Assembly: GCF_000179915.2 (NCBI RefSeq)
Contig: NC_014963.1
Span: forward strand, 2,790,001 to 2,854,000
Origin: Terriglobus saanensis SP1PR4
Lineage (GTDB): Bacteria; Acidobacteriota; Terriglobia; Terriglobales; Acidobacteriaceae
DNA: 64,000 nucleotides
Direction of reading: 5' to 3'
Part shown: positions 23,982 through 42,190 of the stretch, piece by piece
How positions within the stretch are numbered: position 1 is the first letter of the stretch
How the letters are laid out: each line of letters starts with the position of its first letter
The notes under the pieces: generated by a model
Told to the model about the DNA's origin: nothing
Seen by the model: only the letters and a program-made list of their open reading frames with translations
The model's database searches: none
Program-made: the position numbers and the translations under genes

Positions 23982-24764
23982 TTACTGAGGCTGACTAGAG
24001 GTTGCTTCATTCAGACGAAGGTGAATACGGGTCTTTACCGTTACAATTCGTGCTGCCTTGCCCACTCCTCGTACACGCCACGACGGGAGTGTCGGTTGTT
24101 CCAAGCGCTCGCAGAATAGCAAGATGCCAATCGCAGCCATAGCGATCAAGTGTCCATGCGGCAGCAGCATCGGACATAACATCCACGCCCAACACGAGCC
24201 GATGCACCAAATTGCATGGGTTACACCATACCGCAACGCATCCATATCTGCTGCAAGTCCGAACGTGTCGAGCCTGCTGTAACGATGACACCCGTTCAGA
24301 CAACATTGCTTCACCGGCGAGAATTGCCATATGAGGGCGATGGCCAAAATGATGCCAATCGGAAGATAGGATCTCGCTCTCAGGGTTGTTATCACCGCCG
24401 CCATGGTAAGCATCCAACACCCCAACACCAGCCAGGTGATCGTATAAGCAACTACGAAAAGGCCCACGCTGCGCACCCGACGACACTTAAGACTTCGCAG
24501 ACGTATGTGGCAGATAGGGGCAATCAACATCGGAGACATCATCGCAACGAACATCACAACCCAGCCCACAATGAGCTTTTGGCCTGGGAATGACGCCATG
24601 AATAAGTGGGCGGGCATGGTCCTCAACATGGATGAATGTTGGCCAGTATGTTGATGGGGAACGAGTGCGTCTCCGCCTGGGCCAAGCAGACAGATCCAGG
24701 CGGCCACACTGATCATCCCTACCATAGTTGCAACCCGTGCGAATTCACGCGCCTCGTAGGTCAT
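23982..24764 (-). CDS. DUF2182 integral membrane protein, partner of tyrosinase
   Basis: A 260-residue polytopic membrane protein of the DUF2182 (predicted metal-binding membrane protein) family. 'GWVVMFVAMMSPMLIAP' is the family hallmark (W-x-x-M-x-x-A-M-M-x-P), followed by 'SPVKQCCLNGCHR', with paired cysteines and His, and by 'CIGSCWAWMLCPMLLPHGH'. The Met-, Cys- and His-rich helices suggest metal, perhaps copper, binding. The tyrosinase gene ends 3 bp before this start, so the two are one transcriptional unit. Family function is not established; a role in copper delivery or anchoring is inferred. Confidence 0.88.
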   Translation of the reverse strand: MTYEAREFARVATMVGMISVAAWICLLGPGGDALVPHQHTGQHSSMLRTMPAHLFMASFPGQKLIVGWVVMFVAMMSPMLIAPICHIRLRSLKCRRVRSVGLFVVAYTITWLVLGCWMLTMAAVITTLRARSYLPIGIILAIALIWQFSPVKQCCLNGCHRYSRLDTFGLAADMDALRYGVTHAIWCIGSCWAWMLCPMLLPHGHLIAMAAIGILLFCERLEQPTLPSWRVRGVGKAARIVTVKTRIHLRLNEATSSQPQ

Positions 24765-24767
24765 AGG

Positions 24768-26390
24768 TCAGAGTCCCTTTCGGAAGATGCTGACTTTCCC
24801 AATCGTGATCTGGTCCTCATCTGCGATGGTCTTATTGGGCACAATCGTGACGCCCAGAGAATCGCTATCAAGAGCGCTCCCTAAGTGAAGCTTGTCCACC
24901 ACTTTGGATATGTCTAAAGCAAAATTGAGGCCCTCACCACCGTGATCTCCCAACTCGAAGCTGGCGTCGGTAATGCCAAACAACCCCACGCTTCCTGCTA
25001 AAAGTTCAGGATGTTCCGCTGGCTTGGCATTTGGTGGCAAGTTGATGAAGACATTCAGGATTTGTGTGTCTCGCGTACCACGGACATTTTCTAAATTGAG
25101 AATGACCCTGTCCGGTGGAGACGAGACCGCGGCCTTTTCGAGGCTCGCTGTCAACTGACGGCGAACCTCAGGCTGGAGCCTCACAAGAGTATGCGCTCCT
25201 TCCCCCTCGACTCTCAATGGAGATAAGCTCGCGCCCACCAATTCAATGTTCTTGCCTTCCGGAACAGATGCGCTCATCTTGGATCCCTCGACTTTAATGG
25301 CCGCCCCCAGATTCACCAGTCTTTCCGCGATCACATTGACGGCTCCGCCGGGTCTGGTTAGGTCATCATAGGTATAGTCCAATTGGTTGAAATTCCCCAT
25401 GTCTCGCGGGGTATAAATCCATTTGCCAATGCCCGGCCAAGGCATGACAAATTCTTGGTTCCCTCCCGCAGCGGGGCCGTTGAGCCATGTGGGGTCTGTC
25501 GGGTTTGGATTCCCGAGAGTGACGTTCCAACTCGCCCACAAACGATCGATATTGGCGTGATGCAGGTAGAAGATCGGATCAAGTCCCGCCAGAGCAGGCA
25601 CACTCATGAGACCGGGAACGCTACCATCGGGAGAAGTGCCTCCGACATACACATGGACAAGATCGTGCGGATTTGCCTCCAGGTCGCCGTGTGTGCCTGA
25701 GGAATGATTAAATCCCGTTTGCGGTCCTCCAAACTCTGGCACCCGGTTATCGCCCGCGAAGATGGGTTGATTCATGGAATCTAGAGTCACGGGACCGTAG
25801 AAAAGGTCGGTCGGAATCGGCGGGTGATTTTGAATCCCAGCTTCTGTCGCAACCCAGATATTCGCTTGGTCGGCACTATTCATCGGGCCATATCGAGCAA
25901 TGGGTAAGAGCGGGTTCGGGCTCCCGTTCGGCAGCGTGGGCGCCGTGAAGGCAGGTGGAATATCGTACTCCTGAGCGGGTCCAAAATAGTTCCAATAAGG
26001 CAGAGCCCACGTGGAGGGCCCACCGAGCGTTTTTATCTCCTCTCTTATCTGTGCTTCGAGCGCCAGCAGATAACCACGGTGCCATGGCAGGAAATACCAG
26101 CTTCCGTGCTGGCATTGATTCCAAAATGTTATATAGGTGGCTTTGGCCGGAAGAGGCACAATTGGAACGGCAGGCGCCCCGGGTATCTCGCTCCATGGAA
26201 AGGCTCGTGGATTCTTCAAGCTCTCCGGCGTTACATATTCGCCATGGATGGCCGCAAAAAACCACCAACTCGCGGTGTTGTCCAAGGACCGGGCCATCAT
26301 TGCCTGGACTCCGATTGCGTACCAGTAAAGATCTTTGTTGTCGAAGGTTCCGCCATTCTTCCAGGCGTTACTGCGCGTAAAATCGGCCAT
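24768..26390 (-). CDS. Tyrosinase-family type-3 copper oxidase
   Basis: A 540-residue binuclear-copper phenol oxidase. CuA ligands are visible: His49 (A-A-I-H-G-E-Y), His95 (Q-C-Q-H-G-S-W-Y) and His104 (L-P-W-H-R-G-Y). CuB ligands lie in 'NPHDLVHVYVGG' and 'LDPIFYLHHANIDRLWASW'. After residue ~330 a beta-rich C-terminal domain follows ('ILNLENVRGTRDTQILNVFI', G-S-V-G-L-F-G), similar to the shielding domain of polyphenol oxidases. No signal peptide is evident. GGAGGAG precedes the start. It forms a bicistronic unit with DUF2182. It hydroxylates or oxidises phenols and catechols to quinones; the physiological substrate is unknown. Confidence 0.95.
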   Translation of the reverse strand: MADFTRSNAWKNGGTFDNKDLYWYAIGVQAMMARSLDNTASWWFFAAIHGEYVTPESLKNPRAFPWSEIPGAPAVPIVPLPAKATYITFWNQCQHGSWYFLPWHRGYLLALEAQIREEIKTLGGPSTWALPYWNYFGPAQEYDIPPAFTAPTLPNGSPNPLLPIARYGPMNSADQANIWVATEAGIQNHPPIPTDLFYGPVTLDSMNQPIFAGDNRVPEFGGPQTGFNHSSGTHGDLEANPHDLVHVYVGGTSPDGSVPGLMSVPALAGLDPIFYLHHANIDRLWASWNVTLGNPNPTDPTWLNGPAAGGNQEFVMPWPGIGKWIYTPRDMGNFNQLDYTYDDLTRPGGAVNVIAERLVNLGAAIKVEGSKMSASVPEGKNIELVGASLSPLRVEGEGAHTLVRLQPEVRRQLTASLEKAAVSSPPDRVILNLENVRGTRDTQILNVFINLPPNAKPAEHPELLAGSVGLFGITDASFELGDHGGEGLNFALDISKVVDKLHLGSALDSDSLGVTIVPNKTIADEDQITIGKVSIFRKGL

Positions 26391-27782: not shown

Positions 27783-28133
27783 TTATCCCATGGAGGGTCG
27801 GTACATGATGAGGACCATTGCAACCGCAAGAAGTACAAAGCCGAAAAGCTGAATTGCTCCCAGACGCTCCCCGAGTAAATAGTGGGAGATGAGCGCTACG
27901 CAAATAACGCCACCCGCTAAGTGAAACGAGGCCATCTGCGCGCCGCTGTAAGTGCCATAACCAAATCGCGTCGCACCCACATTGAGCACGTACTCCGGCA
28001 GCACGAGCAGCCAACTGGCACCCAACGCCATCCAGAATCCGATACTGTTTCGAAATCGTAAGTGACCAAGCCACGCCGTCGCCATCAAGGTGCTCGATGC
28101 CAACATTAAAATCGGTACGAAGATTCTCTTCAC
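27783..28133 (-). CDS. DMT-like small membrane protein, DUF486 family
   Basis: A 116-residue protein with four hydrophobic helices. 'TLMATAWLGHLRF', 'ASWLLVLPEYVLNVGATRFG', S-G-A-Q-M and 'VISHYLLGERLG'-like segments (here ALISHYLLGERLG) match the DUF486 family of small drug/metabolite-transporter-like proteins. The start is GTG at 28133 with AAGGAGG ~10 nt upstream. It is convergent with the TauE gene and is a single-gene unit. Confidence 0.85.
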   Translation of the reverse strand: MKRIFVPILMLASSTLMATAWLGHLRFRNSIGFWMALGASWLLVLPEYVLNVGATRFGYGTYSGAQMASFHLAGGVICVALISHYLLGERLGAIQLFGFVLLAVAMVLIMYRPSMG

Positions 28134-28698
28134 CTGATCACTTCCTCCTTACAGACGGTCTTGCCGTTTATGGAACCGTAACACGGCTTCTGACGGCCCA
28201 ATAAGCTTGTGGCGTGTCAGTTCTCGGACCGTGAGCCTCGAAGGCGATGACACTCGGCAATCTGCGCAGTTTGAAGTTCGTTCCCAAAAGGGGACGGATC
28301 CGGCGATGGCGCTCCCGCCGATCGAGAATCCGTTGAGTGAATTGAAAACTCAGGTCAACGTCTCATCAATATCATCCCCACTGTTGCTCATAGGCCATGT
28401 GCTGATTCGCCATATTTGAAAAAGACTTATTCGATCTTGACTTACAAACCGAAAATCTGTAAACAGTTGCGAAGCATATAAGTAGCATTATCAGGCACAC
28501 GAAAAGCATTCAGGTTAGACCTTCGCTACTTTGTTCTATTTCTTCCCACCCGGCCCACATCGATTCGATACACTTCGCCCGTTTGACGAGGATTGAGGTG
28601 CGCAATGATGACCATGGTCGCTCTGTCGAGCGCCGGTGGAAGACGCGCGCATCGTGAGTGCTTCGTCCGTTCTTCGCACTTCGATAGGAGGCACTCAG
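28134..28698. other. Intergenic region upstream of the cupredoxin gene
   Basis: No gene is recognised. The AT-rich part (28430-28520) contains TTGACT (28437-28442) and probably holds the promoter for the cupredoxin-multicopper oxidase pair. I could not find a convincing -10 at the right spacing. Confidence 0.4.
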
Positions 28699-29004
28699 AT
28701 GCCCTTCAATTGGACCATTGACATCGATTCCAATAAGCCGCAGCCACCGCTCGTCAAGTTTCATCCGAATCCTCTGACCCAGGTAGCGCCCGGCGATCAA
28801 GTCGTCTGGGCAAACAACGACGGTGTCCCGCATTGGCCCGGCCTCCTGAATTCCGACGGTTCCATTAACGAGACATACTTTATGCCTAATCAGATTGCGC
28901 CACAGTCGACGTCGGACGCGTTTTCGCCCGCGGCGGACGGGACATTGCAATACGCATGCTCTCTTCATCCGGGAGAAAAAGGAACGATCCAAGTGCAGGG
29001 ATAA
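28699..29004 (+). CDS. Cupredoxin (plastocyanin-like blue-copper protein)
   Basis: A 101-residue single-domain cupredoxin. 'VAPGDQVVWANNDGVPHWP' supplies the first copper His (P-H-W). 'LQYACSLHPGEKGTIQV' gives the Cys-x-x-His pair of the second copper loop (the usual C-x2-H-x4-M form has Glu-Lys where Met is often found, so the axial ligand is unclear). There is no signal peptide in the chosen frame. AGGAGG lies 7 nt before the ATG; the longer frame to 28636 lacks this. It precedes the multicopper oxidase by 38 bp and may be its electron donor or acceptor. Confidence 0.85.
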   Translation: MPFNWTIDIDSNKPQPPLVKFHPNPLTQVAPGDQVVWANNDGVPHWPGLLNSDGSINETYFMPNQIAPQSTSDAFSPAADGTLQYACSLHPGEKGTIQVQG

Positions 29005-29042
29005 GACGATATTCAGGCAGGACCGCCGAGAAAGGATGACGT

Positions 29043-31628
29043 ATGACTGGCCTCCGCTTTGTAACAGCGCAATGGAATCGATGGCCGCAGTGCAATGGGG
29101 CGGAGGTGACACCCTCTCCCAGGTCTCGCGGCATCCGCACGGTCGGTTTCGTGTGGTTTCTCTTGCTGGTCATTGTCCCTCTGGCTTACGCCCAGAATCC
29201 ACAAATCGTGCCGTGCCCAACACCCGGCTCTCAGAACCTGCTTCCCATACCAGAAGTCGCGAGAACATCCGACGGCGTGTTGCGCGCGACCATTAAAAAT
29301 GTCGATGGTCTGCGGACTGGGTGGGGAGCCGTTGGCGTTCCTGGCCAGTCAACAACGGACGCTCGCTGTGCAAGCCAATATATGCGCTACTACGTCGGCG
29401 AAGACACGAAGCATCCCCAACCCTGGCCTACAACCCCCGATCCTCTTCCCGGCCCCACGTTGCGCGCACGCGTGGGCGACCTGGTGGAAATCACATTCCA
29501 GAACGTGGTCAACTCCCAGCATTTTGCGAACACTCTCGATCGGGGCGAAGAGGGCTTAGGAAACACAGACGGCTGCGACGTAGTCACTGCGAACACGAAT
29601 CGCCCCGATTGGATTGCGAGTAAACCTTATAGGTCGGGTGCGACCATCAAGCCTCTCAGCAACAATGCTGCGGGCTATGTTTACACCTCTACCAAAGCCG
29701 GAACCAGCGGTGCTACGGCCCCGATCTTTCCCCAAACACCAGGACAGACCGTGACGGACGGCACGGTCATCTGGACCAATCAGAACGCCCCAATCTATCC
29801 CACGGGTGGCGACTATATGCCCGATTGCCTGCATGGATCGAGCACCTCCAATCTCCATTTTCACGGCACACATACAACGCCCAGCACCACCGGAGACAAC
29901 GTGTTGTTGTTCGTTCACCCAGCTCTGCGTGGCGCTAAGGGTCTCGAACCCAGTGATGCGGAAGTAAAGACCAACTTCGCGAAGATCTTCGGCGCATGCG
30001 AGAAGGATGGTTCCCCGGCAAAGTGGGAGCAAATCCCGCTTGAGTGGCGAAAGATTCAAGAAACTCTCTTGAAGAAATACGATGCTACCGCCCCGTATAA
30101 GGGACAACCGGGAAAACTGCCTCACATGATGCAGCTATGGCCTCCGAACGCGGAAGAACTTGCACAGGGACTCTGGCCGCAATTCAATATCGGTGCTTTT
30201 CCGTACTGTTTCCGACTGCCTATCTACAACCAGTCCCCATCCCCGGGCGCTCCTCCGACCCTTATGGGGCAAGCGCCGGGGACTCAGTGGTACCACGCGC
30301 ACAAACACGGCTCCACCGCATTGAACGTGGCGAACGGGATGACCGGCGCGTTCATCATTGAAGGTCAGTACGATGACGACCTGCAAAAGTTTTACGGCGG
30401 CAAGTTGCATCAGGAGGTTTTGGTTTTGCAGCAACTTTCGTCGACGCCGTTCCCGGTGCTCAACGCCTCATACAGCGGAGGACCAGGGGCAGCCAGGCCA
30501 CCGATCTCAGTGAACGGGAGGCGGCAACCGATCATAACGATGCAGCCCGGCGAAGTGCAGATGTGGCGCATTGTGAACGGCGATTTCCGCGACTCCGTAC
30601 AGTTGGTGAGTTTCACCGCGCAAGGGTCGACACAGCCCTGCAACCAGTCGGGCGCTTCGGCGGTCATGACGCCATGCGTAAGCTGGCGACAAATCGCGCA
30701 GGATGGTGTGCAGTTCAACTTTGCAAACTACCAGAAACAAGGATCGCCCTATAACCCGTTGAATCTGTCGCCGGCCAATCGCGCCGATCTTCTAGTCAAG
30801 GCGCCCACGCAGCCCGGTACTTATATTCTTCAAGCCTCTGCGAATACTGGTTTTCCCCTACAGACCTGCGGTTCGTCGGCCCCAGCCGGATGCCAGGCGG
30901 CTCCGGATGCGGCTTACCCCTTCCCGTTGCTTACCGTAAACGTCACGGGCAATCCAATCACTCCCGCAATGGATTTCATCCAGAACCAGAGTGATTTTCC
31001 GCAACTTCCTACGTTCCTGAAAGACATTCCTGAGAACACGATCTTCACGAAGCGGACCCTGGTATTCGGCGCGGGGAATACGACTATCGATGGACAACGA
31101 TTCGACCCCAACAAGGTGAACCAAGCGATGCTGCTCAACACGGCAGAAGAGTGGACGGTCATGAATCAGGCCAACGACAAGGCTCATCCGTTCCACATCC
31201 ACATCAATCCCTTCCAGATCACCGAAGTTTTCGAACCCAACAGCCAAGCGGCAACCACGAAGGGGAATCCATGCTATGTGGACCCGAACGACCCATCGAC
31301 CTTCAAGCCATGCCCGTCACAACAGCCCCAGGCTCCGTTCGTGTGGTGGGATACCTTCGGCATACCCACGGGCGCGCAGTTTGACATCACCACCCAATGC
31401 TCGAATTCAAATGACGTGAATACCTGTCCACAAAAGCTTCAACCCTATGCGGCCTGCGCGCAGGGGACCTGCACGGAGACAATTCCTGGCTGGTTCAGGA
31501 TGCGTTCCCGCTTTGTCGACTTCACAGGTCAGTACGTGATCCATTGCCACATCCTCATTCATGAGGATCGAGGCATGATGCAACTGGTTGAGGTCGTGAC
31601 TGACAAGACCCTGTACACGCACCATTGA
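29043..31628 (+). CDS. Large secreted multicopper oxidase with an inserted repeat-type module
   Basis: An 861-residue three-domain multicopper oxidase. A signal segment (residues ~30-50) is preceded by a long hydrophilic N-terminus. All four copper signatures are present: HFHGTH (272-277), WYHAHKH (416-422), HPFHIH (715-720) and HCHILIH-E-D-R-G-M-M (834 on, with type-1 Cys and Met). Between strands of domain 1, residues ~190-246 form an extra module (W-I-A-S..., 'GTSGATAPIFPQTPGQTVTD', then G-T-V-I-W) that resembles a small carbohydrate-binding/phage-fibre repeat and is not part of normal oxidases. The likely role is oxidation of phenols or metals in the periplasm or outside. It is co-directional with the cupredoxin. 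Confidence 0.94.
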   Translation: MTGLRFVTAQWNRWPQCNGAEVTPSPRSRGIRTVGFVWFLLLVIVPLAYAQNPQIVPCPTPGSQNLLPIPEVARTSDGVLRATIKNVDGLRTGWGAVGVPGQSTTDARCASQYMRYYVGEDTKHPQPWPTTPDPLPGPTLRARVGDLVEITFQNVVNSQHFANTLDRGEEGLGNTDGCDVVTANTNRPDWIASKPYRSGATIKPLSNNAAGYVYTSTKAGTSGATAPIFPQTPGQTVTDGTVIWTNQNAPIYPTGGDYMPDCLHGSSTSNLHFHGTHTTPSTTGDNVLLFVHPALRGAKGLEPSDAEVKTNFAKIFGACEKDGSPAKWEQIPLEWRKIQETLLKKYDATAPYKGQPGKLPHMMQLWPPNAEELAQGLWPQFNIGAFPYCFRLPIYNQSPSPGAPPTLMGQAPGTQWYHAHKHGSTALNVANGMTGAFIIEGQYDDDLQKFYGGKLHQEVLVLQQLSSTPFPVLNASYSGGPGAARPPISVNGRRQPIITMQPGEVQMWRIVNGDFRDSVQLVSFTAQGSTQPCNQSGASAVMTPCVSWRQIAQDGVQFNFANYQKQGSPYNPLNLSPANRADLLVKAPTQPGTYILQASANTGFPLQTCGSSAPAGCQAAPDAAYPFPLLTVNVTGNPITPAMDFIQNQSDFPQLPTFLKDIPENTIFTKRTLVFGAGNTTIDGQRFDPNKVNQAMLLNTAEEWTVMNQANDKAHPFHIHINPFQITEVFEPNSQAATTKGNPCYVDPNDPSTFKPCPSQQPQAPFVWWDTFGIPTGAQFDITTQCSNSNDVNTCPQKLQPYAACAQGTCTETIPGWFRMRSRFVDFTGQYVIHCHILIHEDRGMMQLVEVVTDKTLYTHH

Positions 31629-31767
31629 GCGACATAAGGACGAGTTTCTTCTTGCCGAGCTTCATCTCCATGCTCGCGCGAAGCGGGCACTGTACCTGTT
31701 CTGAACAACGCTGTAGACAAATTGTAGGAGCGTTTGTAAGTCACTTCCAAGTTCAGATAAGGAACGG

Positions 31768-32547
31768 ATGCCCGATCAAACGATGAGCTCCACTTTCGAC
31801 TCCGCAGCGTCTACCTTCGAGCATCAACGTTCGCTTCCCAGGGAGGTGCCGGAAGCGATTCGTGCGGCCATATGGTCCATCACCGGCCTCTCTGGGCCAG
31901 CCCGGGTGCTCGACATCGGTGCCGGAACAGGACGAATCGGAAGAGCATTTGTCGCCGCAGGCGATTCCTACTTCGGCGTGGATACTTCCCTCGCAATGCT
32001 GCAGGAGTTTTCCATAGACGCCGTGAATTGCACTCTCACTCAGGCTGATGGAAACCATCTACCCTTCTCCGATCGCTCTTTTGACGTCGTGTTGTTGATG
32101 CAAGTCCTCAGTGGCGTGGACGACTGGACAGGGATACTCGACGAAGCCCGGCGCGTCGTGCGCGTGGGTGGGTGCGTGGTGGTCGGCCGTTCCTCCAATC
32201 CGGAGTGGGGAGTCGATACGCAGCTTAAGAAACAACTCAAACACATTCTGGAAGACATCCATCTTGCTCCTTTCCCCACGGAGCAGTCGCGACGACAGGC
32301 AATGGCCTTGTTGGAGTCTTTGGCCGCGCGGCATACCCATGCCGTGGCCGCCTCTTGGCACGTTCTCGCTACGCCGAATGCGTTTTTGCTGCGACATCGC
32401 ACAGGCGCCCGGTTCGTCGCCCTTCCCCCCAATATCCAGAAACAGGCGCTTGAAAAGCTGGGCGCGTGGGCCGAGTCCACCTTTGGCTCTCTTGACGCCG
32501 AATTCGCCGAAACACGCAGCTTTGAAATAGATGTTTATGAGTTCTGA
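31768..32547 (+). CDS. Class I SAM-dependent methyltransferase
   Basis: A 259-residue protein with a methyltransferase_11-type domain: motif I 'VLDIGAGTGRIGRAF', the acidic loop 'GVDTSLAMLQEF', 'ADGNHLPFSDRSFDVVLLMQ' (motif II/III region) and 'EARRVVRVGGCVVVG' (motif IV). The acceptor is unknown. It ends 12 bp before the first MoSto-like gene, so it is probably transcribed with it, although no methyltransferase is known as a partner of molybdenum storage. Confidence 0.9.
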   Translation: MPDQTMSSTFDSAASTFEHQRSLPREVPEAIRAAIWSITGLSGPARVLDIGAGTGRIGRAFVAAGDSYFGVDTSLAMLQEFSIDAVNCTLTQADGNHLPFSDRSFDVVLLMQVLSGVDDWTGILDEARRVVRVGGCVVVGRSSNPEWGVDTQLKKQLKHILEDIHLAPFPTEQSRRQAMALLESLAARHTHAVAASWHVLATPNAFLLRHRTGARFVALPPNIQKQALEKLGAWAESTFGSLDAEFAETRSFEIDVYEF

Positions 32548-32559
32548 GGATGAGCATTG

Positions 32560-33411
32560 ATGACAAACCAAACACAAAACGGTAACTCGTCCCTACACAA
32601 GCCCGGCAAACAACTCTTTGATTCGCTTTCTGATGCGCATTTGGCAAAAGTCTCGGAGCATTCATCTGACTTCACCATCCTGCCTTGGGTCAATGTGGTT
32701 AAGATTGGAGGCCAAAGCATTATGGATCGCGGTCGAGCGGCCGTATATCCGCTGGTCAGCGAGATTGTGGCGAACCTAAGCAAATACAAGATGATCCTTG
32801 GAACCGGAGCCGGTACCCGCGCGCGTCACATCTATAGCGTCGCGATTGATCTTGGCCTGCCCACTGGAGTCCTGACCGTTCTCGCGACCGCCGTTGCCTG
32901 GCAGAATGCGCAGATGCTGCACTACCTGCTTGCCCAGTATGGAATACCCTTCGTTGAGCCAGAAGGCTTCAGCACGCTGCCGCATTATCTGATGGAGCGG
33001 AATGCCGTCGTCTGCCAAGGCATGCCTCCGTACAAGCTATGGGAGCCGAATCCGGCCACAGGCCGCATTCCGCCGCAACGCACCGATACCGGATGCTTCC
33101 TCACCGCCGAAGTCTTCGCGGCACGGAAGATGATTTACGTGAAAGACGAGGACGGCCTTTATACAGCCGATCCAAAGAAAGACCGCTCTGCCAAATATAT
33201 TTCACGAATCTCGGTCGAAGAGTTGCTCGCTCTTGACCTCGACGATCTGATTGTGGAGCGTGCCGTTCTTGAGTTCCTTGCCCGGTCGCGCAACATCCAC
33301 GAGATTCAGTTCGTGAACGGGCTGATACCTGGCCAACTGACCGCCGCACTGAATGGCGAACCCGTAGGAACCATCATCTACAAGAATGGACATTCGAATG
33401 ACCATGCATAG
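32560..33411 (+). CDS. mosB: Molybdenum storage protein subunit, MosB-like (amino-acid-kinase fold)
   Basis: A 283-residue member of the aspartate/glutamate/uridylate-kinase fold in its MoSto branch. Diagnostic stretches are VKIGGQSIMDRGRAAVYPLV, 'GTGAGTRARHIYSVAIDLGL' plus P-T-G-V-L, 'MPPYKLWEP', 'GRIPPQRTDTGCFLTAE', 'VKDEDGLYTADP' and 'VNGLIPGQLTAAL'. From memory these agree better with the Azotobacter beta subunit than with alpha (tentative). MoSto packs polyoxomolybdate or tungstate clusters in an ATP-dependent cage. The next gene encodes the second subunit and overlaps it. The start ATG at 32560 follows a GAGGA site; a TTG directly before it is less likely. Confidence 0.83.
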   Translation: MTNQTQNGNSSLHKPGKQLFDSLSDAHLAKVSEHSSDFTILPWVNVVKIGGQSIMDRGRAAVYPLVSEIVANLSKYKMILGTGAGTRARHIYSVAIDLGLPTGVLTVLATAVAWQNAQMLHYLLAQYGIPFVEPEGFSTLPHYLMERNAVVCQGMPPYKLWEPNPATGRIPPQRTDTGCFLTAEVFAARKMIYVKDEDGLYTADPKKDRSAKYISRISVEELLALDLDDLIVERAVLEFLARSRNIHEIQFVNGLIPGQLTAALNGEPVGTIIYKNGHSNDHA

Positions 33412-34216
33412 TTCTGGTGCTCTCCATGTGAAATCTAAATTGATGCGGGAATCCCTCGTCGATAAGCACGTCATCAGCGGCACCGACGGCCATGTATTTT
33501 CTATCCTCCCGGATGTGAATGTGATTCAGATCGGTGGACGTTCGATCATGGACCGTGGCCGGTCCGCATTGATGCCCCTCTTGGAAGAAATTGTCGCCAA
33601 TCAACCCCAACATCGAATGATCATCGGAGTTGGGGCCGGTATTCGTTCTCGTCACATCTTTTCCATCGGACTGGATCTGGGACTGCCCACAGGCGCGCTG
33701 GCGACGTTGAGCGCGAAAGACGCGGCGCAAAATGCCTACATGGTTTCGTGCCTGCTGGCCCAATACGGGTTCGTGTATCTTGAGGCGCCGTTCGTCGTTC
33801 AACTCCTTCCAGCAATGCTCGCTGCCGCACGTGGTGCGGTCTTCAATGGAATCCCACCCTATGCCCTGTGGGAGCACCCTCCAGCCGTTGGCAAACTACC
33901 GCCGCACGGAAGCGATGCTGGATCCTATCTGGTGGGCGAAGTGTACGGAGCACGCAGCGTTATCTTCGTCAAAGATGTGGACGGTCTCTATGCGGATGAC
34001 CCAGTGGCGAACGGCAAAGCTGAATTCATTCCGGACATCCGTGCACAAGAACTCATCGATAGAAATCTGGCTACGCTTCCCGTTGAGACGTCGGTACTGG
34101 ACCTTCTACTGAAAGCCAAACTCATGAAGCAAATCCGGATCGTGAATGGCTTGAAGCCCGGCAACCTCACGCTTGCCCTCGCGGGAGAATCGGTCGGTTC
34201 GGTTATCCGACAATGA
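33386..34216 (+). CDS. mosA: Molybdenum storage protein subunit, MosA-like
   Basis: A 276-residue paralogue of the upstream gene: VIQIGGRSIMDRGRSALMPL, 'GVGAGIRSRHIFSIGLDLGL' plus P-T-G-A-L, 'IPPYALWEHPP', 'KLPPHGSDAGSYLVGEVYGA', 'VKDVDGLYADDP' and 'VNGLKPGNLTLALAGE'. The R-H-I-F-S-I-G-L-D-L-G-L-P pattern resembles the alpha subunit (tentative, from memory). The gene overlaps mosB by 8-26 bp depending on which of three ATGs (33386, 33398, 33404) is used, so the two are translationally coupled, as expected for a fixed heteromeric cage. A molybdenum hydroxylase operon follows 400 bp downstream. Confidence 0.82.
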   Translation: MDIRMTMHSSGALHVKSKLMRESLVDKHVISGTDGHVFSILPDVNVIQIGGRSIMDRGRSALMPLLEEIVANQPQHRMIIGVGAGIRSRHIFSIGLDLGLPTGALATLSAKDAAQNAYMVSCLLAQYGFVYLEAPFVVQLLPAMLAAARGAVFNGIPPYALWEHPPAVGKLPPHGSDAGSYLVGEVYGARSVIFVKDVDGLYADDPVANGKAEFIPDIRAQELIDRNLATLPVETSVLDLLLKAKLMKQIRIVNGLKPGNLTLALAGESVGSVIRQ

Positions 34217-34404
34217 TTCAGAAGCATTCAATTATTTGGAGAAATTTTGCCCCTTGGTGAAGTTGCCACCGTGTGCATCCAGAGAGACGGCGCTGCGTTA
34301 TTTCTTAGCCGGCGGCATGGGGTGAGGTTGGCGTCATCGCACCCATATCACAAGCTTCCTGCCGACCATCCGGCCGAACTCGGCTGATCTCCAGCCACCA
34401 CATA
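34217..34404. other. Gap between the MoSto genes and the hydroxylase operon
   Basis: No gene. A short run (34254-34332) faintly resembles an SDR C-terminus (E-V-A-T-V ... G-G-M-G) but is too weak to annotate. The promoter of the hydroxylase operon is expected here. Confidence 0.35.
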
Positions 34405-34429
34405 GGAGAATCAGCAATTTTGATTCTCC
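34405..34429 (+). promoter_or_regulatory. Perfect hairpin upstream of the Mo-hydroxylase operon
   Basis: GGAGAATCA (34405-34413), loop of 7 nt, TGATTCTCC (34421-34429): a perfect 9-bp stem. There is no U-tract after it, so it is not a classical terminator. The left arm is a Shine-Dalgarno-like GGAGA and the right arm is its anti-sequence. The hairpin sits 7 nt before the ATG of a 57-codon frame. Leader regulation or an operator are both possible. Confidence 0.5.
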
Positions 34430-34436
34430 ACGCAGC

Positions 34437-34610
34437 ATGGCACAGCATATTGGGGCACAGGGCTCGTTGGATCACCTCCGCAAGAACCTCGACCTTACAA
34501 ACGGCAGTTCTGTATCGTTTATTCGCCGCGCTATCCCGATGCTTCGCCGCTTCTTCCGCGCGATTGGCTGCAAACCGCTGGCAAATCCTCTATCAGTGCG
34601 TGAGGCTTAG
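34437..34610 (+). CDS. Possible small basic leader ORF upstream of the 2Fe-2S subunit
   Basis: 57 codons ([18 protein letters not shown]... ending NPLSVREA). It starts just after the hairpin and ends 14 bp before the 2Fe-2S subunit start, with that gene's CAGGAG ribosome site between them. It is rich in Arg and Lys with a hydrophobic-basic helix ([18 protein letters not shown]). There is no known family. A longer frame starting with TTG at 34420 overlaps it in another phase. It may be a chance frame. Confidence 0.3.
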
Positions 34611-34624
34611 GCCAGGAGTCGCCG

Positions 34625-35089
34625 ATGGCTCACTTTACTCTCGAGATCAACCATCAACAACATACCGTAGATGCCGATCCGGAGATGCCATTACTCTGGG
34701 CGCTCCGTGACCTGCTCAATCTGACGGGAACAAAGTACGGTTGCGGCATCGGACTTTGCGGAGCCTGTACTGTCCACATCGACGGTGCCGCAACCCGATC
34801 CTGCCAGACTGCCGTCGCTACATTGGCGGGCAAGCAGATCATCACCATCGAAGGTCTCGGATCAAATGGCCTGCATCGGGTCCAAGAAGCGTGGATAGCT
34901 GAACAAGTTCCTCAATGTGGCTACTGCCAGCCCGGTCAGATTATGTCTGCGGCGGCATTACTCTCCGAGAATCCTCGCCCCAACGATTCCGACATCAATG
35001 ACGCAATGGCTGGCAATCTTTGCCGTTGCGCCACTTACTTCCGCATTCGCAACGCCATCCATCGCGCCGCGGAGGAAACTTACGCATGA
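34625..35089 (+). CDS. 2Fe-2S subunit of a molybdenum hydroxylase (isoquinoline 1-oxidoreductase alpha/CoxS type)
   Basis: A 154-residue iron-sulfur subunit of the xanthine dehydrogenase superfamily. The plant-ferredoxin-like N-terminal cluster has Cys40, Cys45, Cys48 and Cys60 ('[15 protein letters not shown]', T-R-S-C-Q). The C-terminal all-helical cluster domain has '[18 protein letters not shown]' and 'NLCRCATY'. The length is standard. CAGGAG lies upstream. It transfers electrons from the molybdopterin subunit to the cytochrome encoded two genes on. Its TGA overlaps the ATG of the large subunit (ATGA). Confidence 0.95.
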
Positions 35090-37301
35090 GCACGAAACCC
35101 ACCTCCGTGCCAACGAAGACAGGTGGGGCGATTTCCCGCCGCACCTTCCTTACAACCTCTGCTGCGGCAGAGGAGCCCTGGTCATAGGACTCACGCTTCG
35201 CGGTCGGTTTCATCATCCTTCTTCCGAAGTGTCGAAAGATCCTTTTAACGCCTGGATCCGCATTCATCCCGACGGACAGATCCAACTCGTTTTGAACAAA
35301 TCCGAGATGGGCCAGGGAGTCTTTACGGCGTTGCCCATGATCCTTGCCGAAGAGGCCGAGATCGATTTCTCGCGGATCACCGTCATTCAGGCAGACGATG
35401 CTGATGGTACCGGAGGGAGCGGTTCCGTCGCTGGTGGTTACAAGCCTCTCCGTCAGGCCGGAGCACAAGTTCGCGAGGTCATGATTGCCGCGGCTGCACG
35501 CCGGTGGGCCGTCCCCACAGCCCAATGCCGCGCTCGGAATAGTCAGATTATTGACACATCTTCAGGACGCACACTCTCTTACGCTGCCCTCGTCAAAGAG
35601 GCTCGTCGCCTTCCACTGCCTGATGCGAAGACAGTCCCGCTGAAAGATCCAAAAGATTTCTCGCTTCTCGGTCGTTCGGTCCGTCACCTCGACATCCCCC
35701 ACAAGGTGAAGGGAGCAGCGCGGTTCGGCCTCGATGTTCGCCTGCCCGGAATGGTATACGCTGTCGTAGCTCAGTGCCCGTACTTTCGTGGCGAACTTGT
35801 AAGTTACGATGCCGCCAAGGCCAAAGCGATCCCCGGTGTTCTCGAAGTCTTCGATATCCCCACTGACCTGCAATCAGCAAACAAAAACACGCGAGAAGTT
35901 GCTGTAGTGGCGACCAACACTTGGGCCGCCATCCAGGGCCGCAACGCGTTGGCGACCGAATGGAAGTCGGGTCAGTATCATGACGAATCTACTGAAACCC
36001 TCACCACGCAGTTGCGAGCCGCACTTGACGCTCCGGAATACTGGAACTCGACCAATACCGAGCTCAATCCCGATATCGTCCCTGCCGCCAAACGTCTTGA
36101 AGCCATTTACGAGTTCCCTTTCCTTGCTCACGTCACCATGGAACCGATGAACATCACGGTCAGCCTCGAAGGAGGCCGTTGCGAAATATGGTCTCCGACA
36201 CAGGCAGGAGAAGGTACCCGGGAGACTGCCGCTAAACTCCTCGGTATCGATAAAAAGAATGTCACCGTCCATGTAACCTTCATGGGTGGGGGTTTCGGTC
36301 GCCGCTTCGGCGCACCTTTCGATCACCAGGCCATCCATATCGCTCGGAGTGTCCGACGCCCCGTCCAGCTTATCTGGACCCGAGAAGACGACTTCACGCA
36401 TGATCGCTACCGTCCTGCAGGCATGCATCGTCTCCGCGCTGGCATCGATCAAGAAGGAACTCTGGTTTCGTGGACGGATCGTCTAGTCGACACCACTATC
36501 ATCGGCCAAGGCGACCCCAAACAAGCTCAGCTCTTTGAACTCGGCGGAGCCCTCGATCAACCTTATCCGGCGCAACATTTTCGAATATCCTATGTGCCCA
36601 TCGATAGCGGCGCCACTCGCGGGGCGTGGCGCGGCGTCGAAATATCCTTCAATGTCTTTGCTGTCGAAAGTTTCATCGATGAACTTGCTCACCTCGCAGG
36701 ACAAGATCCCTGTCTCTATCGCCGCCGTCTATTTGAGAACACCGCCGCTCAGACCCGCACTCCGAGATCGAACTTCGATGGGGCGCTCGCCGATCCCAAG
36801 CGCATGATAGAAATGCTCGACCTGACAGCAGAGAAGGCCGCCTGGGGTAAGCCGCTCGGTGTCCATCGTGGGAGAGGTATATCCTGTTTCTTCTCGAAGA
36901 CCACCTATCTCGCTCAGGTTACGGAAGTCACGGTCAAGAAGGGCAACATAAGCGTTGACCGCGTTGTCACGGTGGTCGATCCGGGTACGGTCATTAACAT
37001 GAATGGCATCCGTGCACAAATTGAGGGTGCCATCCTCATGGGCCTGAGCGCCACTCTCAAGGAACGCATCACCGTCAAAGACGGCATGATTCAGCAACAG
37101 AACTTCAATAGTTATGACCTGCTGAGAATGCCTGATACACCGCACCTCGAGACCCACCTCGTCGAAGGAGGCCGTCTTCCCGGAGGGATCGGTGAACCGC
37201 CGCTTGCCCTTATCGCTCCCAGCGTTGGAAATGCGATCTTCGCCGCGACTGGAAAACGCCTGCGTAAATTGCCCCTGCAACTTGACGAGGTATCTTCATG
37301 A
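35086..37301 (+). CDS. Molybdopterin subunit of aldehyde/isoquinoline oxidoreductase type, leader out of frame
   Basis: The body (frame ending at 37301) is the xanthine dehydrogenase-type molybdenum subunit: '[20 protein letters not shown]', '[15 protein letters not shown]', '[15 protein letters not shown]' and the active-site '[19 protein letters not shown]', whose Glu is the catalytic base. The ATG coupled to the 2Fe-2S gene (35086) opens another frame with a Tat leader, [20 protein letters not shown] then FLTTSAAA, which hits a TAG at 35185. The body frame takes over at about 35171 (GALVIGL). A 2-nt loss, a 1-nt gain or recoding would explain this. With that correction the protein has ~739 residues, normal for the IorB group, and is Tat-exported. 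The substrate is probably an aldehyde or N-heterocycle. Confidence 0.85.
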
Positions 37302-37636
37302 AAGAGATCTCGCTCTCTTTGCTAGATGCATTCTTGGCCTCACTTCTCTTTCTCGCTATTTCGGTTCCGCAGGCGGTGGTCTCCCAAGAGTCCGCGCCGC
37401 CGACTGTTACCAACGGCAAGCGCGTGTTCAACCGATCCTGTTCTGCCTGCCATGACACGAGCGGCGTAACCGCGAAGTCTGGTCCCGAACTCAAGAACTA
37501 CTATCGCCGCCAACCTCGTCCAGCCGATGCCACGGTGCGCGCGATCATTCAGCAAGGAAAAGGCAAGATGCCCGCCTTCAACACTCTCAGCAAGGCGCAG
37601 ACCGGCGATCTGGTGGCCTACCTCAAAACACTTTAG
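37298..37636 (+). CDS. Class I cytochrome c, electron acceptor of the Mo hydroxylase
   Basis: A 112-residue secreted monohaem cytochrome. The signal peptide spans ~1-30; the haem motif CSACH is at 48-52 and the axial Met91 is in G-K-M-P-A-F. It starts with an ATGA overlap to the molybdopterin subunit. The three-gene order 2Fe-2S subunit, Mo subunit, cytochrome c is that of periplasmic molybdenum aldehyde dehydrogenases, which pass electrons to the respiratory chain. The role here is inferred from position. Confidence 0.92.
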   Translation: MKEISLSLLDAFLASLLFLAISVPQAVVSQESAPPTVTNGKRVFNRSCSACHDTSGVTAKSGPELKNYYRRQPRPADATVRAIIQQGKGKMPAFNTLSKAQTGDLVAYLKTL

Positions 37637-39343: not shown

Positions 39344-42190
39344 ATGCGCACTCGCAGGCTTGGATTTGTAGCTTCCCTTACGGCTTTGGTTTTTGTGTTT
39401 TTGGGTGGATGTGGTAAAGAGAAGGCGGCGACTGTCTCGCCTTCTGTAACTTCGACTGTGCCGGTCGCAGGAGCGACCGGCGTTCCGGTGAACCAGGTTA
39501 TCTCGGCTACGTTCAATGAGTCGATGAACCCATCTACCATTACCGGAACAACGTTTCTTGTGACGGGACCCGGGGCGACCGCGGTTGCCGGCACCGTGTC
39601 TTAGACCGCTGCGGGATCCGTGGCCTCCTTCGCTCCAGCAGCAAATCTTGCATTCAATACGACTTACACGGCGACAATCACAACCGCGGTGACAGATATG
39701 ATTGGCGTTCAGCCGTCGGCAAACTACACCTGGAGCTTTACAACGGCTACGCAGCCGACGGTGGTCGCAACCGTGCCCGCAAATGGCGCGACAGGTGTGC
39801 CGATCAATCAAGTTCTCGCGGCGACGTTCAGCAAGGTGCTGAATCCGGCGACAGTCAATGCCACCACTTTCCTTCTGAATGGACCAAATGGGACCACTGT
39901 AGCTGGAACTGTTGCGTATAACGCGACGGGTTCGGTGGCTTCATTCATCCCGAGTGCGGCATTGACGTACAACACGATTTATACGGCCACGCTTACGACC
40001 GGTGTCACTGATTCAACCGGCGATCCGTTGGCTGGGAACTATACCTGGAGCTTCACGACCGCAGTGCAGCAGCCTGTGGTTCTTTCGACCGTGCCGCTCA
40101 ATGGCGCCACGGGGGTGGCGCTCAACCAGGTGCTGAGCGTGACGTTCAGCCATACGATGAATTGCGCGACGCTTACATCGCCGGCAACCAGCTTTGTGGT
40201 CACCGGTCCTGGCACGACAGCGGTCGCGGGCACGGTTACTTGCTCAGGCACAGGAGCCGCCTTCACTCCGTCCGCCGACCTTGTCGTCAACACCGTGTAT
40301 ACGGCCACGATCACGACCGGAGCCCAGTCTCAAGGGGGCGCTCCGTTAGCCACCAACTACGCATGGATGTTTAGAACGCTTCCGGCGCCAACGCCGCCAA
40401 CGATCATTTCGACAGTTCCTGCGAATCTGGCAGTGAATGTGCCGATCAACCAGGCTCTCAGCGCCACCTTCAGTGTGGCCATGACACCTGCCACGATCAA
40501 CGCGACTACCTTCACGCTCACTGGACCGGGAGCCACTCCCGTGACGGGAGCAGTCGCCTACGTCGCCGCGGGTTCCACTGCGACTTTCACCCCGTCGGCA
40601 AGCCTTGTGCCGAACACGCTGTATACGGCTACGATCACCGCCGGGGCACAGAATCTGGCCGACACTCCGTTAGCCCAGAACTATGTCTGGACTTTCACTA
40701 CCGGAGCAACGGTCGTTGTACCACCTACCGTAATTTCGACCAATCCCTTGGCCGGAGCTACGAACGTGCCGGCCAATCAAGCGGTCAGCGCCACGTTCAG
40801 CGTTCCGATGAATCCATCCACGATCAACTCGACAACCTTTATGCTGACGGGGCCGGATACCACGCCCGTCGCCGGTTTGGTTGCTTACGCGGCCATTGGA
40901 AATACGCTGACGTTCAACCCGACAGCGAATCTTTTGCCCAACACTCTGTATACGGCGACGATCACGACCGGAGCGCAAAATCTCGCGGGCACCGGCTTGG
41001 CTAGTAACTATGTCTGGACCTTCACCACCGGTGCGCCGATCGTTGTCCCGCCGGAGATTGTTTCGACGTTACCCGTAAATGGTGCCATTAACATTCCACT
41101 GACACAGGTTGTAAGCGCAACCTTCACTAAGGCAATGAATCCGCTGACGATCACCGACGCCACCTTCCAGCTTACGCAGGGTGGAGATGCGGTGGCCGCC
41201 ACATTGACATATGACGCAATCACGTTCACAGCCACTCTCACACCCACGGTCGCATTACTCCCCAGTACCAGCTACATTGCAACGGTAACTTCCGGAGCAA
41301 CGGATCTTGCAGGAAATCCTCTGGGGACCACAGGAGCGGCGAATCCTTGGACATTTACGACTGCTGCGGCCATTGTGCCGCCGCCGATCGTTCTTGGTCC
41401 GACCATCTCGCTCTTTGGAGGGTTTGGTGGTGGCGCCGGAATCACGAATCAGGGACTCCTATCGGCCATCAATAACGGAAATATCGGAACCACAGGTGCG
41501 TCGTCGCTCATCACCGGATTTCACGACGATAGCGTTGTGACTCTTACTGGTGTCAATGCGTGCACCTATACGGAGTCTCCGTTGAACGTAGCACTTGTGG
41601 GAGCGACGGCGACGACACCGGGAACGGGGCTCACCACGATCTTTACAGCCCCTGGCTCCAGCCAGCCCACGACGGCTTGCCCGAATGAGGGAACCGCCAC
41701 TACCTTCGCCACCGCGACCCAGGCCGCGCTGGAAGCCCAGGCAGCCTACAACACACTGCAGGGTCTTCCTCCAGGGATCACGCTGTCGAATACCGAGCTT
41801 GGCAATCGTACCCTGGCTCCTGGCACTTACACCTCCGCAACCTTCTACAACATCACGCAAGGTCCGCTGACTCTCGACGCTCAAGGCGATGCCAATGCGT
41901 ACTGGATCTTCCAGATGGGATCGTCTCTCCAGGTGGGCACGCCTACGGAATCCCAAAGCGTTGTTCTGATCAACGGTGCCCAGGCAAGCCATGTCTTCTG
42001 GGCGGTAGGTGGTCTTCCTGGCGCGGTCATCAACTACGGAGGAGGCGGAACGATGGTAGGAACCGTCATTTCGTCACCGGGAATCACGATTTCAAGTCCC
42101 GGAGTTGCCGCCATAACGACCATCAACGGCAGAGTGATCGCTTTGAACGCGTCGATCACAATGGTCAACACGGTTATCAACGTCCAGTAA
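39344..42190 (+). pseudogene. Lipoprotein with six Big_5 Ig-like repeats and DUF3494 domain, interrupted by an amber codon
   Basis: A lipoprotein signal (LGGC, Cys23) is followed by six SbsA/Big_5 Ig-like repeats of ~105 residues ('STVP..GATGVP.NQ..SATF...MN ... YTATITT') and a C-terminal ice-binding-like DUF3494 domain: 'ISLFGGFGGGAGITNQGLL', 'ELGNRTLAPGTY', 'LTLDAQGDANAYWIFQMG', 'GTVISSPGITISSPG', 'TINGRVIAL'. In repeat 1 a TAG at 39602 stands where the other repeats have a Tyr (V-T-Y-x-A-x-G), and the same frame continues without shift to 42190. So it is a nonsense mutation, suppression or a sequencing error. Without readthrough only an 86-residue stub is made. Surface adhesion or ice binding is inferred from the family. 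Confidence 0.88.

Follow-up and report, generated by a model that had tools for sequence, protein, structure and literature searches.

A molybdenum storage protein-like subunit pair lacking alpha-type histidines lies in an oxidase-methyltransferase gene cassette of Terriglobus saanensis SP1PR4

Work on the molybdenum storage protein (MoSto) in Azotobacter has concerned its role in supplying nitrogenase. In Azotobacter vinelandii it is MosAB (PDB 2ogx, 4f6t, and 6ris), made of two tandem paralogous subunits of the amino-acid-kinase fold that form an (alpha-beta)3 cage, which is loaded with molybdenum or tungsten in an ATP-dependent manner; a structure of a Kb42S variant is available (title of 6ris). 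Nitrogenase is usually encoded in the same genome. According to a 2019 PNAS study, molybdate is reportedly activated at the ATP site of the beta subunit and then pushed past Met149 of beta. Octamolybdate is covalently attached to His156 and Glu129, and three symmetry-related histidines bind a tungsten cluster (PMC4504029). MoSto was said in 2019 to have no known homologues in protein databases (PMC6448029); its name nevertheless appears in automated annotation, both in Azospirillum records and as KEGG K00947 in PMC13188454. Here, we describe a MoSto-related gene pair in a 64,000-nucleotide stretch of DNA (the window) from the tundra-soil bacterium and apparently cultured type strain Terriglobus saanensis SP1PR4 (NC_014963.1, positions 2,790,001 to 2,854,000), whose genome is complete in a single contig of 5,095,226 bases. 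The pair ends a run of five plus-strand genes at window positions 28636 to 34216, which encode a cupredoxin-like protein, a multicopper oxidase (MCO), a methyltransferase, a homologue of MoSto beta, and a second MoSto-family subunit, here called alpha-prime.

By phmmer, the beta-like protein scored 301 bits with the MoSto beta chain of A. vinelandii and 197 bits with the alpha chain, the top other kinase reaching 36 bits. Alpha-prime scored 233 bits against MoSto beta (2ogx_B), 215 to 217 against alpha chains, and 31 against uridylate (UMP) kinase. UMP kinases have the amino-acid-kinase fold in common with the pair but reach at most 36 bits, compared to at least 197 for the MoSto chains. Archaeal UMP kinase was the top NCBIfam model for both subunits, at 51 and 36 bits relative to a cut-off of 158 bits; together with the phmmer scores, this rules out misassignment of a UMP or aspartate kinase. 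The original prediction for this DNA, of two overlapping MoSto-type genes with two signature motifs, agrees with the coordinates, the bit scores, and the motifs themselves (GAGTRARH/GAGIRSRH and PPYKLW/PPYALW); compared with reference alpha and beta chains, the pair lies far nearer to MoSto than to uridylate or other kinases. Its wording that both kinds of MoSto subunit are encoded went too far: PPYxLW is the beta signature, a true alpha carries PPYHHH, and the second gene is no canonical alpha. The predicted structure of alpha-prime (mean predicted local distance difference test score [pLDDT], 67) gave MoSto beta chains as its top Foldseek matches, at 46% identity. Because both structure models are mediocre (mean pLDDT, 67 and 66), we make no claim about cavity geometry. 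On these scores and motifs, both genes are MoSto homologues and the pair is MoSto-derived.

Residue conservation was counted in 24 rows, comprising the window and 23 loci at which a related pair sits in a tight gene cassette. As in A. vinelandii, the beta-like subunit keeps K42 (23 of 23 readable rows), M149 (23 of 24, with Val in L024), and both K189 and D190 (all rows), and alpha-prime keeps Glu129 (24/24). The partner subunit differs from A. vinelandii alpha in lacking His at positions 114, 130, 140, 156, 157, and 158 in every row. These positions hold Tyr114, Ala130, Met or Ile140, Asp, Ala, or Ser156, Leu157 (22/24), and Trp158. Glu190 is invariant in the His-type alpha set and is Lys in all 24 cassette partners. 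Met, Cys, His, Glu, and Lys residues specific to the cassette are fixed in alpha-prime in place of the anchor histidines. His-type alphas from A. vinelandii, three Azospirillum loci, and L041 served for comparison; they have H114, E129, H130, H140, H156, H157, H158, and E190, except for Asn at 156 in L041. The Azospirillum pairs (L044 to L046) and L041, an acidobacterial pair from a nifH-positive genome, resemble the window in placing the beta gene before the alpha gene but differ in their His-type alpha and in having no methyltransferase or MCO match in the fetched flanks. Outside the tight cassette, the distant pairs L038 to L040 and L042 also miss His140, His157, and His158, although L042 has His156 and three of the four keep His114; L075 likewise lacks His140 and His156 to His158. 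Because the ATP-loading residues are kept in beta and the alpha-type histidines are lost, the loading side appears intact and the storage side appears rebuilt. The pair therefore falls outside canonical MoSto at the alpha ligands, and with moderate confidence we expect it to work like MoSto at the loading step.

The genes upstream of the pair recur with it. The beta proteins of the 23 loci are 69 to 82% identical; since these loci were found by patterns taken from the window's own beta, close relatives are over-represented among them. In 21 of the 23, the gene immediately before the pair encodes a methyltransferase; the exceptions are L023, in which beta adjoins an MsbA-like exporter gene, and L036, where beta is cut by the contig start. 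An MCO relative was found in 19 loci; in 14 it is the same-strand gene immediately preceding the methyltransferase, and in five it lies elsewhere nearby (L016, L017, L019, L033, and L035). In L015 to L018 (4/23), a cupredoxin relative adjoins the MCO. Distances among the beta proteins correlated with those among the methyltransferases (r = 0.69) and the MCOs (r = 0.54), and none of 2,000 permutations gave values as high. An MsbA-like ABC exporter is encoded directly upstream of the methyltransferase in L016 (7297-9201), L017 (5807-7702), and L019 (7268-9148), and directly upstream of beta in L023 (1-1290), with 61 to 71% identity among the four exporters. The suggestion in the original prediction that the methyltransferase 12 bp upstream might be a partner is borne out by these counts; the coordinates given there omit the conserved upstream genes at 28636 to 31628.

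The MCO carries the copper motifs HFHG, HAHKH, HPFHIH, and HCHILIHEDRGM, which cover the T1, T2, and T3 sites, and its metal-binding residues are invariant in 15 aligned sequences. Its best PDB match by sequence and by fold is the laccase of Thermus thermophilus. It is like the T. thermophilus and CotA-type laccases in having all copper motifs; it differs from them in its length of 861 amino acids with insertions, in extra conserved Cys residues, and in an identity of 17% to the best structural match. The top PDB match of the methyltransferase is TTHA0223 (2yqz). Known arsenite-type methyltransferases need Cys. No conserved Cys or His was found in 22 aligned methyltransferase sequences, and the absence of Cys from columns at least 90% conserved ruled out an arsenite-type enzyme.

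The pair is rare and scattered. Counted at an E value of 1e-30, it was found in none of 60 sampled close relatives and in 5 of 299 genomes of the order of Acidisphaera (centre genome included). Across the phylum, 7 of 396 genomes have it; the own genome is among them, and one other, G317, is of the same family and has a distant pair. These counts, and the 69 to 82% identical relatives in other phyla, do not fit a trait of Acidobacteria generally. By record names, the 23 loci belong to Acidobacteriota, Acetobacteraceae, Rhizobiales and relatives, Isosphaeraceae, one Gammaproteobacterium, and one Solirubrobacterales bin, and all but one come from metagenome-assembled genomes (MAGs). In the tree, which partly follows phyla, support is 90/99 for the cassette clade and 100/100 for the His-type clade. 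The Gammaproteobacterium and Solirubrobacterales contigs nest within other groups and may therefore be misbinned. By these names, at least three phyla have relatives; a fourth is not counted because it rests on one 4-kb MAG contig. A canonical alpha was sought in other Alphaproteobacteria, and the one match in 385 genomes was the centre genome, which has the cassette pair. Inheritance is patchy, and old transfers and many losses fit alike.

One explanation is that the genes were acquired recently and do nothing for this strain. The pair is present in the strain itself and missing from its 60 sampled relatives, the MCO occurs in none of 18 congeners (and, own genome aside, in one of 40 relatives, a genome that lacks the pair), and a Mo-hydroxylase gene downstream is broken. 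All five cassette genes nevertheless have open frames, their copper and MoSto core motifs are kept, both subunits are 80% identical to those of L015, and the gene order is that of L015 and L018. We regard an idle passenger as the least probable of the explanations considered.

The pair is also found apart from nitrogenase, unlike that of A. vinelandii. The own complete genome has no match to PF00148 (nitrogenase component 1 family), which extends genome-wide the earlier remark that no nitrogenase was in sight. Among 29 carriers, nifH passed the cut-off only in the genome of L041, the sole carrier tested with a His-type alpha; because MAGs make up many of the carriers, any one absence counts for little. 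The genome of L075 (G577) was ruled out as nitrogenase-positive, its four PF00148 matches being BchB, BchN, BchY, and BchZ. Nitrogenases are present in some Acidobacteria (PMC9599518).

Molybdate transporter genes provide evidence on cargo. Mod genes over the cut-off lie beside three of six distant His-less pairs (modA, modB, and modC in L042; modA and modC in L039; modC in L038) and beside one tight-cassette member (modA and modB in L017). With L075 left out, the Poisson chance of three such loci among five is approximately 5e-7 assuming one operon per genome and 4e-6 assuming two. This linkage favors molybdenum or tungsten as cargo for the His-less branch in general, and less firmly for the cassette in the window. 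Taking the linkage together with the residue comparison, our leading though tentative explanation is that the pair forms a MoSto-derived heteromeric cage, probably loaded with the use of ATP and encoded within a methyltransferase-oxidase cassette, in which bacteria that lack nitrogenase would keep molybdenum or tungsten in reserve or buffer it. Several observations weigh against it. Mod genes were not found beside L040, L043, or L075, and the linkage in the tight cassette (1/23 loci; Poisson P = 0.07) is not significant alone. L075 has no methyltransferase, MCO, or Mod gene within 12 kb. The MCO is missing in L023, L028, L029, and L036, and, although flanks are short in L023 and L036, those of L028 and L029 are long (∼9 kb upstream). 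In alpha-prime, the cluster-anchoring His156 is gone and alpha Lys45 is replaced by Gln in 21 of 24 partners.

Much of the same evidence could instead mean that the cage has taken on a different cargo or reaction, with the pair, the methyltransferase, the copper oxidase, and sometimes the exporter handling a small molecule or copper and no molybdenum being stored. Replacement of the alpha anchor His by fixed cassette-specific residues would fit such a change, as would neighbors that are mostly copper proteins, exporters abutting the methyltransferase or beta in four loci, and the scarcity of Mod genes near the tight cassette. Retention of the ATP- and oxyanion-loading residues in beta argues against it, as do the Mod genes that accompany half of the six distant His-less pairs and one locus of the tight cassette, and we consider this alternative somewhat doubtful. 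Detoxification, in which the cage would sequester tungstate, vanadate, or excess molybdate, is improbable in our judgment. MoSto shields A. vinelandii from tungsten (PMC6448029), and an oxidase and an exporter would suit a metal-stress cassette; the molybdenum-linked neighbors, however, are importer genes and not oxyanion efflux genes.

If the cage is indeed a molybdenum or tungsten reserve, the following route can be proposed. The products of 32560 to 34216 would assemble into a heteromeric cage with a rebuilt interior. Beta would keep its ATP-driven oxyanion-loading site, as its conserved residues suggest by analogy with Azotobacter, and loss of the alpha-type histidines, including the known anchor His156, suggests that cargo is held differently. 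From the linkage of transporter genes to His-less pairs, we infer that molybdate or tungstate is most likely what the cage takes up, and that it acts as a reserve or buffer where nitrogenase is absent. In its cassette the pair is linked, with patchy inheritance, to the methyltransferase and secreted laccase-type oxidase and sometimes to the MsbA-like exporter or ModABC. In acid, humus-rich soil, the oxidase might free molybdenum or tungsten from phenolic or catecholate ligands, ModABC would import the freed metal, and ATP hydrolysis at beta would load the cage. Both the cargo and the role of the oxidase are conjectural here. More broadly, and more tentatively still, we suggest that such pairs represent a second MoSto type, an oxyanion cage that is independent of nitrogenase, is loaded with the use of ATP, consists of two beta-like subunits without His anchors, is found in at least three phyla within a metal-scavenging cassette, and would store molybdenum, tungsten, or another oxyanion by a different chemistry.

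The coordinates of the cassette and of the adjoining genes are given in Table 1. No Rfam match at gathering score was detected in the window, where a riboswitch control was looked for, and an uninformative scan for promoters and terminators gave fewer sites than in shuffled sequence.

Table 1. Cassette genes and adjoining genes in window coordinates
Feature	Position	Strand	Basis and remarks
Cupredoxin-like protein	28636..29004	+	Amicyanin/plastocyanin models, weak, under cut-offs
Secreted laccase-type MCO	29043..31628	+	Cu-oxidase domains, four copper motifs
Class I S-adenosylmethionine (SAM) methyltransferase	31768..32547	+	Methyltransf_11/25
MoSto beta-type subunit	32560..33411	+	301 bits vs 2ogx_B; start TTG 32557 or, likelier, ATG 32560
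Second MoSto-family subunit (alpha-prime; beta-like at alpha-specific sites)	33386..34216	+	233 bits vs 2ogx_B
2Fe-2S (FeS) subunit of Mo-hydroxylase	34625..35089	+	Fer2, Fer2_2; judged outside cassette
Mo-binding subunit	35086..37301	+	MoCoBD_1, MoCoBD_2; frame-disrupted; judged outside cassette
Cytochrome c	37298..37636	+	Cytochrome_CBB3; judged outside cassette

The gap of 12 nt between the methyltransferase and beta is counted to the ATG at 32560. Downstream, the 2Fe-2S and Mo-binding domains fit a xanthine-oxidase-type Mo-hydroxylase, whose twin-arginine translocation (Tat)-like leader is out of frame with the large subunit. The original prediction suggested that MoSto buffers molybdenum for the maturation of this neighbor. 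Adjacency favors such a role, as the FeS gene begins 408 bases after alpha-prime on the same strand, and in L030 FeS and Mo-binding relatives lie ∼6 kb off. L030 is, however, the only one of the 23 loci with both relatives, and there they are on the opposite strand; L016 has an FeS fragment only (46 bits), and no relative of the cytochrome c gene was found near any of the 23. These neighborhood counts rule out the Mo-hydroxylase as a cassette partner: what is conserved around the pair is the methyltransferase (21/23) and the MCO (19/23), not the hydroxylase (1/23). The three genes had also been described as coupled by ATGA overlaps. That at 37298, between the Mo-binding and cytochrome c genes, is correct. 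The ATGA at 35086 to 35089 exists, but its ATG opens a 33-codon frame with a Tat-like motif that stops at 35185 to 35187, and the Mo-binding domains are encoded in a different frame, the gene spanning 34917 to 37301. The large subunit is thus, as far as the reading frames tell, either a pseudogene or the result of a sequence error. Two further Mo-hydroxylase loci are found elsewhere in the genome, and modB lies ∼1.4 Mb away. Considering the single instance, the disrupted frame, and the two other loci, buffering for the adjacent hydroxylase is very unlikely. The original observation was therefore largely right, as was its aside on the methyltransferase; the partnership with the Mo-hydroxylase was wrong.

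Ten other window genes, including a tyrosinase, were tested as cassette members, and relatives near the loci were seen only for DMT_6 (L023), FeS (L030 and the L016 fragment), and the Mo-binding gene (L030). A membrane protein of the DMT_6 (DUF486) type is encoded close to the cassette both in the window (27783-28133, minus strand) and in L023 (3030-3458, minus strand), with 53% identity. The tyrosinase (PF00264 with DUF7868; 24768-26390, minus strand), whose gene adjoins that of a PpoB2-type copper chaperone (23982-24764) and precedes the cupredoxin and MCO genes by ∼2.2 kb, is a second copper oxidase near the cassette; its relatives are absent from the fetched loci. A recurrent family is encoded downstream of the pair in L021, L026, L031, and L032, with a VTT domain by the L021 member, and VTT-domain proteins are annotated a few kilobases from Azospirillum MoSto (L045 and L046). 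Further downstream in the window (39620-42190, plus strand), an Ice-binding-like domain (PF11999) follows six Big_5 Ig-like repeats, which fits a tundra organism.

In the literature searched, outside which most subscription papers fall, "molybdenum storage protein" never occurred together with "multicopper oxidase" or "Acidobacteria." Within these limits, a MoSto variant in a conserved oxidase-methyltransferase setting is new, and so is a cassette, not described there, in which a copper oxidase acting outside the cell would be coupled with oxyanion storage inside it. A conserved His-less relative of MoSto in bacteria without nitrogenase would make it possible to study the residues that drive ATP-powered loading separately from those that nucleate metal-oxide clusters.

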